From NCBI GenBank assembly GCA_028821605.1, contig JAPPFM010000053.1, positions 1-64,000 of the forward strand: 64,000 nucleotides of DNA, read 5' to 3'. A model generated the notes under the pieces. It did no database searches. It was given only the letters and a program-made list of their open reading frames with translations, and had not been told where the DNA came from. Below, piece after piece: positions 49,077 through 57,978 of the stretch. The number at the start of each line of letters is the position of its first letter. Within the stretch, counting starts at the first letter, position 1. This DNA comes from Candidatus Poribacteria bacterium. Lineage in GTDB: Bacteria; Poribacteria; WGA-4E; WGA-3G. The translations under genes were made by a program, and so were the position numbers.

Positions 49077-50798
49077 TTATTTTCTGTCATCTTCTTTTCT
49101 CAGTTTCCTTCTCGCTCGCCAATACCCAAACTGCCGGAGATAGTAATTAATATTTTTACGGATTCCCTCAAACTCTGGCACGAATGGACACTGTCCACCA
49201 AGCACAACAAGTTCCATCTTGGCACGCGTCATTGCAACATAGAAAACGCGCCGCTCCTCTGTAAGTATACTATCTCGACGGGGAAAGCGATGCGCCAATG
49301 TATTGTGGATAAGGATAACTTTTTCCCATTCTCTACCCTTCACTTTGTGGATCGTCGTTACCTCAGGTGAAGCTGGATGGTTGATAAGCATCTCCTGAAT
49401 CCGTTCTGTTTCGTCGTTGGTACGTGCGAGAATAGCGATTTCTTTCGGGAGTTCTAACTCGCGTAGTAAGGTGGTTTCTACGGTTTCTGGGGTTGTCTCT
49501 ACGATTTTTATGCGCTGCTGCATCGGATTACGTGCGCGGAGATTTTTGCGGATTCGCGGTTCGTTTCGCTCAATCAAAGCCCGTGCGTGTTCAACAATCG
49601 TTGACGTAGAACGGTAATTGCGTGTGATTTCATACTTTTTCACATTCTTCCGATCCGTAAATGCCTGCATAATCTCGGAGTTGCCACCACGAAAACTGTA
49701 GATTGCTTGGTCATCATCACCGACAGCGAAAAGGTTCTCTGATAAGAGCGAAATCAGCCGGAAGTCGGCAGGAGAGATGTCTTGGAATTCGTCAACAAGC
49801 AGATAGGGGTATTTGTCTCGGTAGGTTTGGTGGAGATCGGGATAGGTCTCAAGAAGGTTCGCTGCGTGGATAATCATATCCTCGAAATCGACGGCGTTTG
49901 CTGCAGTTTTGAGCGTCTCATATTTTATGGCAAATGCCTTTGCCACAGGATCGTCGAGTGTAGCTGGGTCGAACACACCTGTAACAACCTGCCGTTTCGC
50001 TCGCGTAACGGTCTCTTCTATGCCGCTGAAACGTTCGAGGAGATTCTCGAAGTCTGGATGTCTATCAAAATGTTTCTCGTAGGTGATGCTGAAATGCTGG
50101 CAGAATATTTCAAGGATGAGTTGGTTGCTGTACCGCACCCGTAACGGATCGGCACGGTTGAACACACTCGCTTGATCTCTATGGAACGCAATCCAGTACG
50201 CTTCGCAACGATTCGCCTCTCGTCCTGTGACCCGTTCAAGTACTTCAAAACGGAATTGTGTTTCTCCTTCAGATCGGATTGCTTGACGGAGTCTATCGTT
50301 TGAGGAGTGGTCGAAGTGTTCCTTACGCCGCCGATCTGGGTTTGTCGTCTGTCCGATATAGCATTTGCCGGTCTTTTTGCTCTCTATTTTATAGATGGCG
50401 ACCGAGGTAGTGGAGGCTTTGCGTTCAATCTGTCTCCGCTCGTTTGTGATGATCTGATCAATCTGTCCCGACCAGATTTCAGGAATATGGTTAAACGCTG
50501 CGCGTTTATAGTTTTCGGTGATAATGTCTTTACCGAAGGCGTGGAGTGTGCGGATGACAGGTTTTTGGGCGGTTTCGGATGCCGTGAGTTCCCGCAAGAT
50601 ACGTGTTTCCATCTCTTCAACGGCTTTTCTATTGAAGGCAATAGCGAGAATATGTGAGGGTGGGATGTTGTGGGTCTGGATAAGGTTTAGAATTCGTGCC
50701 GTTACGACTGTAGTTTTTCCACTACCGGGTCCTGCGATGACGATAGCGGGACCCGCAACATGGTTAGCGGCTTTTTCCTGATTTCTATCGAGTCTCAT
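49077..50798 (-). CDS. UvrD/PcrA-like SF1 helicase with an inserted GIY-YIG nuclease domain
   Basis: 573 residues. Helicase motifs in order: Walker A GPGSGKTT (23-30), AFNRKAVEEM (Ia), TLHAFG (Ic), LLVDEFQD (II, 333-340), VGDDDQAIYSFRGG (III), TRNYRST (IV), TTIHKVKGREW (V) and RRVFYVAMTRAK (VI). Between Ic and II, where domain 1B normally sits, residues about 133-216 form a GIY-YIG domain: AIY, CYIGQTTNPDRRRKEH with the catalytic Arg, and CEAYWI with the metal-binding Glu. Domain 2B is short. It should translocate on DNA and cut it. HNH and RHH-like genes precede it. No clear ribosome site; ATG at 50798 is the only good start. Confidence 0.92.
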   Translation of the reverse strand: MRLDRNQEKAANHVAGPAIVIAGPGSGKTTVVTARILNLIQTHNIPPSHILAIAFNRKAVEEMETRILRELTASETAQKPVIRTLHAFGKDIITENYKRAAFNHIPEIWSGQIDQIITNERRQIERKASTTSVAIYKIESKKTGKCYIGQTTNPDRRRKEHFDHSSNDRLRQAIRSEGETQFRFEVLERVTGREANRCEAYWIAFHRDQASVFNRADPLRVRYSNQLILEIFCQHFSITYEKHFDRHPDFENLLERFSGIEETVTRAKRQVVTGVFDPATLDDPVAKAFAIKYETLKTAANAVDFEDMIIHAANLLETYPDLHQTYRDKYPYLLVDEFQDISPADFRLISLLSENLFAVGDDDQAIYSFRGGNSEIMQAFTDRKNVKKYEITRNYRSTSTIVEHARALIERNEPRIRKNLRARNPMQQRIKIVETTPETVETTLLRELELPKEIAILARTNDETERIQEMLINHPASPEVTTIHKVKGREWEKVILIHNTLAHRFPRRDSILTEERRVFYVAMTRAKMELVVLGGQCPFVPEFEGIRKNINYYLRQFGYWRARRKLRKEDDRK

Positions 50799-50858: not shown

Positions 50859-51293
50859 TCATGAGTCAACAGTGTTTTTGAAATCTTCATAAGCTCCAAT
50901 TTTTATTAGATTCTGGCGTGCTCGAATTGGTCGAGCATCATTCATTCGGAGTGTGTCAACCGTCACCCGACCTATAGGAGTTCGACCTTCTATTTTACCG
51001 GTTTCCCAATTTAAAAGAAAATGAACTGTCCAGTCATCAATTCGAGGGTTGAAAAGTCTAACATCTGCTCCTGTTACTGGGTCAGTTCCTTTTTGATGCG
51101 AGGATTTGTACCTGTTACATTGTGAGCAAGCAAATGCCAAGTTGTCGGGTTCTGTCGGTCCGTCTGCTGCTTGTGGTACAATATGATCAACAGGCAAGGA
51201 GAAAGTGGTGAATTCTTGTGGATATTGGCAGTACTCACACCGTTCATTTGCCCGGCTTGCCACACAAGCTCGCAACGGCTCACTTACACTCAT
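50859..51293 (-). CDS. HNH endonuclease
   Basis: 144 residues. Zinc knuckles C19-x2-C22 and C56-x2-C59 enclose the beta-beta-alpha-metal core: VDHIVPQ (D36, H37), the middle Asn in PDNLAFAC (N51) and the final Asn after the second knuckle (CNRYKSS). This is the common stand-alone HNH nuclease fold that nicks or cuts DNA. GAGG lies 9 bases before the ATG and only 13 bases separate it from the upstream RHH-like gene, so the two are surely one transcript. Its C-terminal 75 residues, with a WETGKIEGRTPIGRVTV beta hairpin, may bind the target or the partner. Confidence 0.9.
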   Translation of the reverse strand: MSVSEPLRACVASRANERCEYCQYPQEFTTFSLPVDHIVPQAADGPTEPDNLAFACSQCNRYKSSHQKGTDPVTGADVRLFNPRIDDWTVHFLLNWETGKIEGRTPIGRVTVDTLRMNDARPIRARQNLIKIGAYEDFKNTVDS

Positions 51294-53243: not shown

Positions 53244-55640
53244 TTACGAATGCAATGGTGTTTGCCACGCAGATTTGAGAATATCAACCGAGGTTTCAAT
53301 AATTGGATTTCCTGCCCTTCCCTTAATGGCGAATTCCAGTGTGTCTGTAACGGTACCGAGACAACCTATCGGTATTTCCGCCATGTGCTTTTCGTAAGCC
53401 TTGCGGTGTTGTGGTTCAATCTCTACAAGAAAACGACTGTTTGACTCCGAGAACAGAAGATAGTCGTCAGCGGTAATCTCATCACCTGTGGGGACATCGT
53501 TGAGATTTAGGGACATTCCGTATCCACCTGAAAACGCCATCTCCGCCGCTGCGACACCGATACCGCCTTCGGAACAGTCATGGCAAGAACGCACCAATCC
53601 GTTATTGATAGCACTGCTGAGGCGTTCCATCGTTAATTTACCTTCATTGGGACGGATGGCAGGTGCGTTGTTTCCGATGAATCCGTGGATACCGAAGTAG
53701 TGCGATCCCCCCAATTCGGCGTAAGTGTTGCCGACGACATAGATGAAATTGCCGGGCGTTTTTACATCCATTGTGACAGCACGCTGAATGTCAGGTATAA
53801 CGCAGATGGCGGAGATAAGCAGTGTTGATGGAATCGCGCGTTGTTCACCTGTTGTGGTGTCGCGGTATTCGTTGTAGAGGCTGTCTTTACCAGAGATAAA
53901 GGGAGTACCATAAGCCGTTGCGATGTCATAGCACGCTTTCGCTGCACGGACTAATTCACCGAGTCGATCGGGTTTATCTGGATTTCCCCAACAGAAGTTA
54001 TCTAACAGTGCTGTTTTTTCTAACGTTCCACCGACAGCAATTATGTTCCGCAGTGCCTCATCGATCGCTGCCGCTGCACTGAGATACGGATCTACGTCGC
54101 TATATTTCGGGTTGATACCGTTCGCGACGATTACGCCCATTCGGCTTCCAATAACAGGGGTAACAACGCATGCATCGCTGGGTCCGTCGTTTTCTGCGCC
54201 GACAAGCGGATTGATCACTATACCACCTTGGACACCATGGTCGTATTGCCGGATGACGGATTCTTTGCTTGCAATGTTTGGACTTGCGAGAAGTCGTTTG
54301 AGATCTTCAGTGTAGTTTTCCGTTTCTTCATCTCGTGATGCCATGTCTGGGTGCTTCGGTAGGGACCAAACTGCCTGCTTGACGGGTTTCGGTAAGCCAT
54401 TGTGCAGAAATTCCATCTCTAAATCAGCGACTATTGCACCTTCATAGAACACTTGTAACCGATGTGTGTCTGTGAAATTTCCGAGGACCGTGGCTTCAAC
54501 GACTTCCGCTTCGCATATCTCCATGAGTTCGTCTATATTTTCAGCCGGGACAGCGATGACCATACGTTCTTGTGCTTCGGATAGCCAGATTTCCCAGGGG
54601 GCGAGTCCTTCATATTTCAGGGAGACCCGTTCCAAATGCACTTCTGCGCCTATATGTTCTCCCATCTCACCCACAGCAGAGGAAAACCCTCCCGCGCCAC
54701 AATCAGTTATGGAGCGATACAGGTTACGATCGCGTGCTTGTAACAGGGCATCGACAATCTTCTTCTCCGTAATTGGATTGCCGATCTGTACGACGCTGCC
54801 AAGATTTTCAGATGTATCGTCGAGTTCTGCGGAGGAGAAGGTGGCACCGTGGATTCCGTCGCGGCCTGTTTGTCCGCCGATTGCGACGACGAGATCACCG
54901 GGTTCAACGGATTTATCGCATCTGTTTCTCGGTATTAAGCCGACATTTCCACAGAAAACAAGTGGGTTTGCAGTATAGCGGGTATCAAAGAGGATAGTAC
55001 CGTTGGCTGTCGGAATGCCCATCCGGTTGCCGTAATCACGCACGCCAGCGACGACCCCTTTAAAGACGCGTTTCGGATGAAGCGTACCTTTCGGCAGCTG
55101 CGCGTAAGGCGTATCCGGCATCCCGAAACAGAAGACATCTGTATTCAGAATCGGTTTTGCACCAAGTCCCGTGCCGAGTGAGTCACGGATGACACCACCG
55201 ATACCAGTACCGGCACCACCGTAGGGTTCAATCGCTGAGGGATGATTGTGTGTCTCCACTTTGAAGACGAGGTTGAATGTATCATCGAATTCGATGATAC
55301 CGGCGTTGTCCGAAAAGACAGAGACACACCACGGTTTTGCTATTTCCTCGGTTGCCCGTTGGATGTAGGTTGGAAACAAACCGTCAATTTGTTCCGGTTC
55401 TTGCTCCCCTTCGGAATAGAGGATGATGCTCTTAAACGTTTTGTGAACGCAATGCTCGGACCACGTTTGGGCGATGGTCTCTATTTCTACATCGGTTGGG
55501 TTGCGTCCTAACGTTCCGAAATGTGTCTGGATCGCCTTCATCTCGTTCAAGTTCAGGGACAGCGTTCCTTCTCGACTGATACGCATCAGTTCAGCATCAT
55601 CTGCGTTTAGAATGTTTATTTCGTTAACCGTATTGGACAT
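53244..55640 (-). CDS. purL: Phosphoribosylformylglycinamidine synthase, synthetase subunit
   Basis: The ATG at 55640 is preferred to the GTG one codon earlier, since GGAGGAA lies 5 bases before the ATG. 798 residues, in the range of small PurL proteins. Signatures: TWSEHCVHKTFKS, VFKVETHNHPSAIEPYGGAG with the catalytic His, GGQTGRDGIHGATFSSAEL, and DGGEGG-type DCSEGGIGVAAAEMAFSGG. It ligates ammonia to FGAR with ATP, in complex with PurQ and normally PurS. No purS is visible next to it. Confidence 0.95.
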   Translation of the reverse strand: MSNTVNEINILNADDAELMRISREGTLSLNLNEMKAIQTHFGTLGRNPTDVEIETIAQTWSEHCVHKTFKSIILYSEGEQEPEQIDGLFPTYIQRATEEIAKPWCVSVFSDNAGIIEFDDTFNLVFKVETHNHPSAIEPYGGAGTGIGGVIRDSLGTGLGAKPILNTDVFCFGMPDTPYAQLPKGTLHPKRVFKGVVAGVRDYGNRMGIPTANGTILFDTRYTANPLVFCGNVGLIPRNRCDKSVEPGDLVVAIGGQTGRDGIHGATFSSAELDDTSENLGSVVQIGNPITEKKIVDALLQARDRNLYRSITDCGAGGFSSAVGEMGEHIGAEVHLERVSLKYEGLAPWEIWLSEAQERMVIAVPAENIDELMEICEAEVVEATVLGNFTDTHRLQVFYEGAIVADLEMEFLHNGLPKPVKQAVWSLPKHPDMASRDEETENYTEDLKRLLASPNIASKESVIRQYDHGVQGGIVINPLVGAENDGPSDACVVTPVIGSRMGVIVANGINPKYSDVDPYLSAAAAIDEALRNIIAVGGTLEKTALLDNFCWGNPDKPDRLGELVRAAKACYDIATAYGTPFISGKDSLYNEYRDTTTGEQRAIPSTLLISAICVIPDIQRAVTMDVKTPGNFIYVVGNTYAELGGSHYFGIHGFIGNNAPAIRPNEGKLTMERLSSAINNGLVRSCHDCSEGGIGVAAAEMAFSGGYGMSLNLNDVPTGDEITADDYLLFSESNSRFLVEIEPQHRKAYEKHMAEIPIGCLGTVTDTLEFAIKGRAGNPIIETSVDILKSAWQTPLHS

Positions 55641-55784
55641 CACTTCCTCCGCAATTTACGCGTCGTCTTCTTGAAGAGATTTTGCTGCAAATATCGTCAA
55701 GCATAATTCTTCGTTAAAGCGTTCATAGACAGGTGTTTTCCCACTCAAAGGTGGCAACTTGGATTATTATGTCCCAATCTTGGT

Positions 55785-56183
55785 TTAGACAGCGGCCCGA
55801 ATTTCCGATAGCACTACACCTTTGAAATCTCTGAAAATATCACGGAGTCTTATCGCTATATCGCTAATTGTTCCTTCAGCACCAAGACTAAGCATCGTCA
55901 TTTTTTCAGCTTCTGTATGGGCGGTTCTGTAGTAAATACAATATGTGAAACGATAAGAACGGAACCACTTGTCTACATCCTGCACTGGAATTTCCCCTTT
56001 GAATCCTAAAACTACCATTTTAACCATATTTTTACCCAACGGAGGTTGTAAGTGAGTTAATAGCAATTCCTCGTAAAGAACCCAGTTAATTTCTACCAAT
56101 GACCAGTCTATAGAAAAATCTTTTGCTTCTTCTTTTAGAATTTGTTCAAATTTTTTGTCGACAACAATATTTGTAGTTTCCAT
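55785..56183 (-). CDS. Hypothetical protein partnered with DUF2971
   Basis: 132 residues, unrecognised. Mixed alpha/beta with no signal or membrane segment: DWSLVEINWVLYEELLLTHL, MVKMVVLGFKGEIPVQDVDKW, and a closing amphipathic stretch TISDIAIRLRDIFRDFKG. It starts on the last base of the upstream DUF2971 gene (stop and start overlap), so the two are translationally coupled. Both are notably AT-rich and Lys-rich relative to the flanking purL and TIM-barrel genes, suggesting joint acquisition. Confidence 0.65.
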   Translation of the reverse strand: METTNIVVDKKFEQILKEEAKDFSIDWSLVEINWVLYEELLLTHLQPPLGKNMVKMVVLGFKGEIPVQDVDKWFRSYRFTYCIYYRTAHTEAEKMTMLSLGAEGTISDIAIRLRDIFRDFKGVVLSEIRAAV

Positions 56184-57022
56184 TATAAACCTCCATCATT
56201 GGTAAGTTCGTCTGAAGTAGGGTCGTCTAAAAGTGTTGATGGACTAACCTGAAAATTAAATCCGAATTTCTGAACTACTGATCTGAGAGTTTCCGTAATC
56301 CAATCCTTCGCGTAGGGTGAGACAATGACTTCATCAATCAACGTACTTACATCAATATTGAAAAGCATACCGATGTCGCATATATCCGGTAATCCAGTCT
56401 CTAAAAAAGAATCTACATTTTCTACAGTCTGATTATTAAGAGCATCCCTAACGAAAGGATCAATATCAACAATTAACCGAACTTCCTGTTCATGTTCGTA
56501 TTCTTTTCTTTTTTGAAAATAAGGAAAATATGTCAATTTTTTAGCCAATGGGATATCGTTTTGTAGAAAGTTTTGCATATATTGGTCGTCATCCGTGTTA
56601 CCGTGGATATACTCTATTTTACCGATATAAATAGAATATTCACTTAACAAGCTATTTTTCATTTTTTCCATGGTTGTTTTGATAGCAACACCACTATTGC
56701 GCATATGATATTTTTCCCACATTGCCATTGACTCTACTACATTCCGATGCCAACAGTTACACATAACATATTTACGTGAAGCTTCATGCCGCTTCATAAT
56801 TGCTTTGACAAACTCTGCTGGGGTGACACGCTTGAGGGATTGCTTGTAAGCATCTATAATACTTTGCGGTATAAATCCTTCGTATGGATCCTCGAATTTA
56901 TCAGCTCTTGTAAAATACAAAGCTTGTGTATCTAACAGATTAACGAATACCTCAAAGTTCGTGTATCGCCACAAAATATCTTTATCGTTTGGAGGGTTAA
57001 TTCCGTCTAATTCTTCATACAT
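56183..57022 (-). CDS. DUF2971 family protein
   Basis: 279 residues with the DUF2971 hallmarks: LWRYTNFEVFVNLLDTQALY near the start, FTRADKFEDPYEGF, CNCWHRNVVESMAMWEKYH and HEQEVRLIVD. It is a cytosolic protein of unknown activity that is frequently found in phage-defence neighbourhoods and mobile regions. Coupled to the 132-residue partner gene at 55785. AT-rich composition sets the pair apart from its neighbours. Confidence 0.85.
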   Translation of the reverse strand: MYEELDGINPPNDKDILWRYTNFEVFVNLLDTQALYFTRADKFEDPYEGFIPQSIIDAYKQSLKRVTPAEFVKAIMKRHEASRKYVMCNCWHRNVVESMAMWEKYHMRNSGVAIKTTMEKMKNSLLSEYSIYIGKIEYIHGNTDDDQYMQNFLQNDIPLAKKLTYFPYFQKRKEYEHEQEVRLIVDIDPFVRDALNNQTVENVDSFLETGLPDICDIGMLFNIDVSTLIDEVIVSPYAKDWITETLRSVVQKFGFNFQVSPSTLLDDPTSDELTNDGGL

Positions 57023-57096
57023 TAAAAATACCTTATACTATACACTGCTAAACTTTGGACAATTTGTCGCGTTTAGTTTGAGAAACTTCATCTCGG

Positions 57097-57129
57097 TAGG
57101 TTGGGTTTTACTGCATTCAACCCAACCTA
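57097..57129. repeat. Palindromic hairpin
   Basis: TAGGTTGGGTT pairs perfectly with AACCCAACCTA (11 pairs, 11-base loop) just downstream of the TIM-barrel gene on the minus strand. No T-run follows; probably a small dispersed palindrome. The preceding AAACTTTGGACAATTT (57050-57065) also occurs at 24976-24991. Confidence 0.55.
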
Positions 57130-57156
57130 TAGACTGTAATTTGCGCGATCGGGCTT

Positions 57157-57978
57157 TCATTCCTTGAATGAAGCCGTAATCCGTGGAATACTCTCCTCAC
57201 AGGCAAACCGTTCAATGCTGGATGCACCTACGAACCCGACGGTGTCGGTATTCTCATTGATATACGCAGCATCTGGTGCCTTTGCGATTGGACCACCGTG
57301 TGACAAGCAGATCACATCAGGATTCTGTGCCTTTGCTGCATCACATATTTCCTGTACACGTACAGCTGCGTCTTCAAGCGTAAAAGCAGTTTCTGCCCCA
57401 ATCGTACCACCGACCGTCGTGTTCATGTGCGCGATGATCACATCCGCACCGACTTTTGCCATACTCTCAGACTCTTCAGGGTTAAAGACATAGACAATGG
57501 TGAAAAGATCCATTTCATGTGCAATACCGATTGTCTCAACTTCTTTATAGAAACCCATTCCCGTCTCTTCAAGCGTTACCCGAAAAGTGCCGTCAATCAC
57601 ACCGACGGTTGGGAAGTTATTCACGCCATCAAAACCAACATCGCGGACCTGCTTGAGGAAGTTGCTCATCCGGCGTGTTGGATCTGTGCCGTTGACACCA
57701 GCGATGACGGGGGTTTCTTTGACAACAGGTAGGACCTCACGTTCTCCCATCTCCATGACGATGGCGTTTGCATCGCCGTAAGCCAACAGACCCGCGCAGG
57801 ATCCGAACCCTGACATCCGGTAGCGACCGGAGTTGTAAATTACTATCAGGTCTGCTCCACCTTGTTCAGCGAATTTTGCTGTAATGCCTGTGCCCGCACC
57901 AACAGCGAGCAAGGATTTACCTCTGTCTAACTCGGACCTAAGTCGTCCTAAAACTTCAGATCTTCTATAATCTGGCAT
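57157..57978 (-). CDS. PEP-hydrolase-like TIM-barrel protein
   Basis: 273 residues. SLLAVGAGTGITAKFAEQGGADL, GSCAGLLAYGDANAIVMEM, PVIAGVNGTDP, GFDGVNNFPTVGVIDG, AHMNTTVGG and CLSHGGPIAKAPD are typical of the phosphoenolpyruvate-hydrolase/TIM-barrel signal-transduction family (PF09370), related to PEP mutase or isocitrate-lyase folds. The exact reaction is uncertain, though C-C or P-C bond hydrolysis of a small acid is likely. AAAGGA precedes the ATG. Downstream of the sulfatase-like gene in the same direction? No: it lies beyond that gene's stop, so possibly the last gene of one unit. Confidence 0.82.
   Translation of the reverse strand: MPDYRRSEVLGRLRSELDRGKSLLAVGAGTGITAKFAEQGGADLIVIYNSGRYRMSGFGSCAGLLAYGDANAIVMEMGEREVLPVVKETPVIAGVNGTDPTRRMSNFLKQVRDVGFDGVNNFPTVGVIDGTFRVTLEETGMGFYKEVETIGIAHEMDLFTIVYVFNPEESESMAKVGADVIIAHMNTTVGGTIGAETAFTLEDAAVRVQEICDAAKAQNPDVICLSHGGPIAKAPDAAYINENTDTVGFVGASSIERFACEESIPRITASFKE

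Follow-up and report, generated by a model that had tools for sequence, protein, structure and literature searches.

Among the described systems closest to the locus examined here, DarTG defends against phage by DNA ADP-ribosylation, according to the available text of PMC11543638 and PMC9503650, and CmdTAC, in the available text of PMC11618068, combines an mRNA ADP-ribosyltransferase, CmdT, with an antitoxin, CmdA, and a chaperone, CmdC, the ADP-ribosyltransferase (ART) being held and then released on infection. The locus is a pair of genes within a 64,000-nucleotide stretch of DNA from a sponge-symbiotic Candidatus Poribacteria bacterium, the whole of which we call the window. One gene (56183..57022, minus strand) encodes a 279-aa DUF2971 protein with a predicted ART fold, and the other (55785..56183, minus strand) encodes a 132-aa alpha/beta protein of no known family that may neutralise the DUF2971 protein, as an antitoxin, or regulate it. 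The pair resembles DarTG in its two-gene effector-plus-partner layout and in the DarT-like predicted fold of DUF2971. It differs from DarTG in that DUF2971 is longer and has no sequence-profile match to 14 poribacterial DarTs, the partner matches no macrodomain (DarG) or NADAR, and the flanking genes are purL and a TIM-barrel gene. From CmdTAC, which has three genes rather than two, we borrow by description only the working model of an ART effector restrained by a cognate partner. DUF2971 also matches PDC-S31 (PDLC04993, E 3.1e-25), a PADLOC candidate family without a tested mechanism, whose "S" we take to stand for single gene, whereas the DUF2971 of the window has a dedicated partner.

We tentatively read the pair as a horizontally moving ART effector and its cognate neutraliser acting in anti-phage defence, an account that we consider quite possible, if still short of probable. 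In the open literature searched, DUF2971 is named only in a genome reannotation and PF11185 nowhere, PDC-S31 does not occur in the listed papers checked for it, and DUF2971 is missing from the main text of PMC9503650, a survey of viral NAD+/ADPr proteins; an earlier statement in the subscription literature is possible.

Layout and composition of the gene pair

Both open reading frames run on the minus strand, and base 56183 is common to the DUF2971 stop and the partner start (TAATG), confirming the single shared base reported in the first-pass annotation. The junction (56181..56194, minus) reads GGAGG-TTTATAATG, with a ribosome-binding-like GGAGG (56194-56190) within the last DUF2971 codons, the stop TAA at 56185-56183 and the start ATG at 56183-56181. 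The same junction is found in G065 and G040, and the one-base overlap is kept in 3/3 intact close-clade pairs, from two genera. This coupled two-gene operon with a small partner has the layout of a type II-like toxin-antitoxin system, in which translation of the partner would be coupled from the DUF2971 stop codon. Downstream lies purL (53244..55643, minus), recognised by homology, with PurL domains found on the G065 copy; upstream lies a conserved TIM-barrel gene (57157..57978, minus) that is present in 57/57 family genomes searched and presumably encodes a "PEP hydrolase-like" protein. The earlier description of the flanks as core metabolic genes stands by homology for purL.

A composition scan bore out the AT-richness ascribed to the pair and placed it far from the genome mean: its GC content is 0.361, against a mean of 0.477 (sd 0.025) across 464 kb of the same genome, where 2/369 non-overlapping 1238-bp windows and only 2/344 other ORFs, the latter compared with either gene of the pair, have GC as low. 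Lysine, also said to be enriched, is indeed raised in both genes (6.5% and 7.6% vs a mean of 4.4%) but only modestly, with 42 and 16 of the 344 other ORFs as high or higher. A simple Nei-Gojobori count of dN/dS gave 0.18-0.29 for DUF2971 (3 pairs) and 0.31-0.43 for the partner in 13/15 pairs, indicating purifying selection on both; in the remaining two pairs, the window against G065 and G069, the partner gave 0.69 and 0.96, values that we count against our main reading.

Predicted fold and conserved residues of DUF2971

The assignment to DUF2971 was upheld by a Pfam match (PF11185) over residues 101-183 that exceeds the gathering score (25.2 vs 22 bits, E 4e-5), and the protein also matches phrog_34615 in PHROGs. 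Its AlphaFold2 model (pLDDT 86.4, pTM 0.85) suggests that DUF2971 likely has an ART fold. Foldseek against the PDB returned DarT at all of ranks 1-8, with E from 8.5e-4 (7omw, probability 1.00) to 0.07 and modest TM-scores of 0.36/0.48. VIA-align gave DarT a Z of 8.2 (140 residues aligned, rmsd 3.2, 8-9% identity), which for this predicted model lies near the level of chance bests, a Z of about 8 being also typical of the best match for models without a clear Foldseek match. The VIA matches that follow DarT are Tpt1 tRNA 2'-phosphotransferase, SopF, CteC and pierisin, all of which we take to be ARTs. Tpt1/KptA (PF01885) is the next best fold group, with Z from 6.6 to 3.2, lower than for DarT and over a shorter alignment; PF01885 has matches in 0/57 family genomes. 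The best viral structure matches of the model are uncharacterised or unnamed proteins, several of them from phages.

By sequence, membership of the DarT family was dropped: a profile-profile comparison (hhalign) of 31 DUF2971s with the 14 poribacterial DarTs gave a probability of 0.2%, and PF14487 (DarT) is not among the Pfam matches of the window DUF2971 at E<=1. Solved structures matched its sequence profile at the level of chance (E 0.45-0.54). DarT itself (PF14487) occurs separately in 34/57 family genomes, sometimes with several matches, and not in G000.

An alignment of ten diverse DUF2971s, including two haloarchaeal, one phage and two gammaproteobacterial plasmid sequences, is invariant in 10/10 at W18 R19 Y20, D45, E48, G49, C90, W91, E97, S98, M101, W102, Y105, K171, E178, E180 and R182. 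R19 falls on a predicted strand (16-22) and E180 opens another (180-185), which makes R19 and E178-x-E180-x-R182 candidates for the active site. According to PMC9967889, the residues used by ARTC enzymes are R-S-E, and DarT depends on R51 and E160; by inference, R19 and E178/E180 could be the counterparts of these catalytic residues.

Partner proteins, inheritance and chromosomal site

Searches of Pfam, PADLOC, NCBIfam and PHROGs gave no match to the partner at E<=1, in agreement with the earlier statement that its family was not recognised, and no likeness to antitoxins, macrodomains or NADAR was seen. Among the structure matches listed, its low-depth model (pLDDT 78.7) led to no named fold (the highest VIA Z was 4.9, the lowest Foldseek E 0.43), and solved structures matched its sequence profile only at chance level (E 0.26). 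No similarity was found between the partner and DarT or the small neighbours c2 and c9 described below. On viral contigs 17 stretches matched the partner pattern, none of them a relative; at the thresholds used, no partner was found on plasmids, and the one match among phages was weak (31%, E about 1) and came from a single phage represented by two records.

The partner is present in 24/84 genomes of the phylum Poribacteria, all in genera g1 and g3 of family f1, and a profile search returns the same 24 genomes; DUF2971 matches occur in 41/84. GTDB contigs hold 21 partner loci, of which 20 are titled Candidatus or uncultured Poribacteria and one, on a short contig of 3275 b, bears the label Ekhidna and may be mis-binned. 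Vertical conservation across the phylum, against which the first-pass annotation had set its proposal of horizontal acquisition, is not seen: the pair is not vertically inherited across the phylum. The partners form a close clade (65-83% identity), in which DUF2971 comes first and the partner second, and a far clade (about 35-49%), in which this gene order is reversed.

Partner and DUF2971 are not always found together. Among 27 partner places, 13 have a full-length adjacent DUF2971, three a fragment (L007, L015, L019) and eight none (L002, L005, L009, L013, L020, L021, L026, L027, with a truncated N-terminal start in L013), and three lie at contig ends (L011, L017, L022). In 10/11 of the cases with a fragment or none, the partner ORF is open; the exception is L002, whose partner carries a stop. 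G058 has lost DUF2971, and there the partner ATG now overlaps the stop of the flanking gene. That the partner often outlasts the loss of DUF2971 is consistent with an antitoxin-like role. Two points count against this reading: DUF2971 is twice the length of the partner and thus a larger target for decay, and type II antitoxins are mostly not encoded downstream of their effector, as the close-clade partner is. We also note that L002 is a second partner copy in the window's own genome, and that no stop is listed within the shorter profile match to this copy.

When 31 DUF2971s are placed on a tree, each of five types of small neighbouring protein marks one group: the window partner, c2, an SNase-like protein (PF00565), c9 and c11. 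The neighbour labels require 4 changes, the minimum, and 0/200 shuffles gave a number as low, in a tree that takes in 31 of roughly 100 match rows and in which near-copies and shared sites add to the pattern. Support is weak for the window-partner group (64/61) and strong for the other four. All 11/11 tree rows of the window subfamily have the partner, or a partner fragment at a contig end (G064), and many DUF2971 rows lie outside this set. Flanks vary for both the c2 and the SNase-like type. Like the window partner, c2 can outlast DUF2971: it is intact without a DUF2971 match in G041 and stands beside a DUF2971 fragment in G037. Small neighbours of the other subclades were seen at L102, L104-L106 and L116 (c2) and at L118-L128 (SNase-like, c9). 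Because the tree rows L103, L108, L109, L121 and L127 have no shared small partner, and DUF2971s on plasmids, in haloarchaea and in one phage look like single genes, DUF2971 does not always need a partner. The earlier suggestion of a two-component system fits the subfamily of the window and not these single-gene relatives.

Relatives of the pair lie at several unlinked chromosomal sites, counted by reading neighbour tables. In the window the pair occupies a 1.5-kb gap between purL and the TIM-barrel gene. The corresponding gap measures ~30 to 370 bases in 8/29 other short loci, this close spacing marking sites without the pair, and in the remaining short loci there is other cargo between the flanks, or purL lies beyond the stretch read; gap sizes came from 30 short and 18 longer loci, out of 57 genomes. 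The partner also lies between these flanking genes in G058 and G069, on contigs near purL in G051 and G065, and at another site in G040 and G042. Because relatives occupy several unlinked sites, the overlap is kept in all intact close pairs and the site beside purL is variable, joint movement of the two genes is supported, as had been proposed. The purL/TIM-barrel interval (55643-57157; counterparts L080, L081, L084-L099) is in itself a variable cargo site in Poribacteria, holding WD40 proteins, SLFN_AlbA_2 proteins, a type ISP-like enzyme, an Eco57I-type enzyme, transposase-like ORFs or nothing.

Restriction neighbours and competing explanations

Genes of restriction-modification (RM) systems recur near partner and DUF2971 genes, and Pfam confirmed enzymes of type I-like, Eco57I/IIG-like, type III and type ISP systems among them. 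Far-clade pairs adjoin a 1000-aa Eco57I/N6-methylase protein (IIG-like), found by clustering at 10/20 wide loci, or an HSDR_N+N6_Mtase protein accompanied by its specificity subunit (type I-like). Near close-clade partners we found an Eco57I-type enzyme in G069 (L080) and a type III Mod and Res, with two TIR proteins, in G042 (L083). Other DUF2971s lie near type ISP enzymes, confirmed by Pfam at L153 and L159 and identified by homology at L154, L155, L158, L160, L161 and L166, and one lies near a type III system and a TIR protein (L162). Eight restriction probes matched 26/44 test loci vs 2/36 controls, a comparison in which the probes were drawn from the test loci, favouring them, and in which many test loci share one chromosomal site, leaving far fewer independent cases. 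An unbiased yardstick is the density of PF07669, with 1005 matches in 300.8 Mb of family genomes (3.3 per Mb, 57 genomes), from which ~5% of 16-kb stretches would be expected to hold a match. The window pair itself has no RM gene next door.

The genome of the window does hold a decayed RM-plus-partner locus, L044 (9046-9494 on contig C46), where a partner with an in-frame stop lies beside what is left of a type I-like methylase, a short stretch of about 36 codons at 86% identity. The TIR-domain proteins that accompany type III restriction genes (DUF1883-TIR; ThsB-like TIR) are encoded at L162 8781-9560 and L083 2386-4178.

The defence role suggested for the pair gains support from the PDC-S31 match and the repeated proximity to RM genes, although proximity is not function. 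We model the pair on a restrained ART because in CmdTAC and DarTG a partner-held ART is freed on infection and modifies nucleic acid. In such a model DUF2971 would be an ART-fold enzyme, most likely catalysing NAD+-dependent modification of nucleic acid or protein, and this modification would stop growth or phage replication. The partner would most likely bind and restrain DUF2971, in the manner of an antitoxin or immunity protein, and release it on infection. Carried in a chromosomal cargo site, the module could back up the RM systems that its relatives adjoin.

An alternative is that DUF2971 is a stand-alone, self-controlled defence effector, with the partner serving as sensor or substrate adaptor to widen its range of triggers. 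The match to PDC-S31 and the single-gene DUF2971s of plasmids, haloarchaea and one phage would fit this account, as would the change of partner family between subclades, as trigger modules might change. We nonetheless consider it somewhat unlikely: a partner that stays open without a full DUF2971 in 10/11 cases is odd for an adaptor, and the conservation of the coupled overlap also speaks against it. The closeness to RM genes invites a different explanation, in which the pair is an ordinary passenger of a variable site, with a housekeeping or other unknown role, and merely shares cargo sites with RM systems in RM-rich sponge symbionts; such symbionts are described as enriched in RM and toxin-antitoxin genes in the available text of PMC5649159. 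The mixed cargo of the purL site, the abundance of PF07669 and the lack of an RM neighbour in the window agree with a passenger. The passenger explanation seems unlikely to us given that PF07669 is expected in so small a share of 16-kb stretches, that four different RM types adjoin the partner or DUF2971, and that PADLOC lists the family as a defence candidate.

DUF2971 also appears in 218 plasmid records and in one phage record, which raises instead the idea that the pair serves mobile elements in counter-defence or maintenance, either as an addiction module or as an ART directed against a rival's restriction system; an ART that acts for phage is known in AcrIF11. In Poribacteria, however, the pairs lie on chromosomes and none of their neighbours was recognised as a phage or plasmid gene, and viral contigs and plasmids lack the partner, phages giving just the weak match noted above; we judge this explanation very improbable. 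Returning to the preferred reading of an ART effector with a cognate neutraliser, a wider form of it would make DUF2971, which is found in bacteria and archaea as well as on plasmids and in at least one phage, an unrecognised class of ART effector whose active site is built on R...E-x-E. Its poribacterial members would have acquired different small cognate partners more than once, and, carried beside restriction systems of types I, II, III and ISP, they would act as a fallback once restriction has failed. We offer this generalisation as a possibility, and a rather doubtful one. If true, it would place a new NAD+-using effector family beside DarTG and CmdTAC and point to restriction systems as travelling companions of such effectors. 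The family is a common orphan, and its predicted ART fold and named candidate residues make its chemistry testable, as the subclade-specific partners provide testable neutralisers.

Elsewhere in the window, a 573-aa UvrD-family helicase (49077-50798, minus) has a GIY-YIG nuclease domain (residues 134-207) inside its helicase N-terminal domain, and is adjoined by a 144-aa HNH endonuclease-like ORF (50859-51293, minus).
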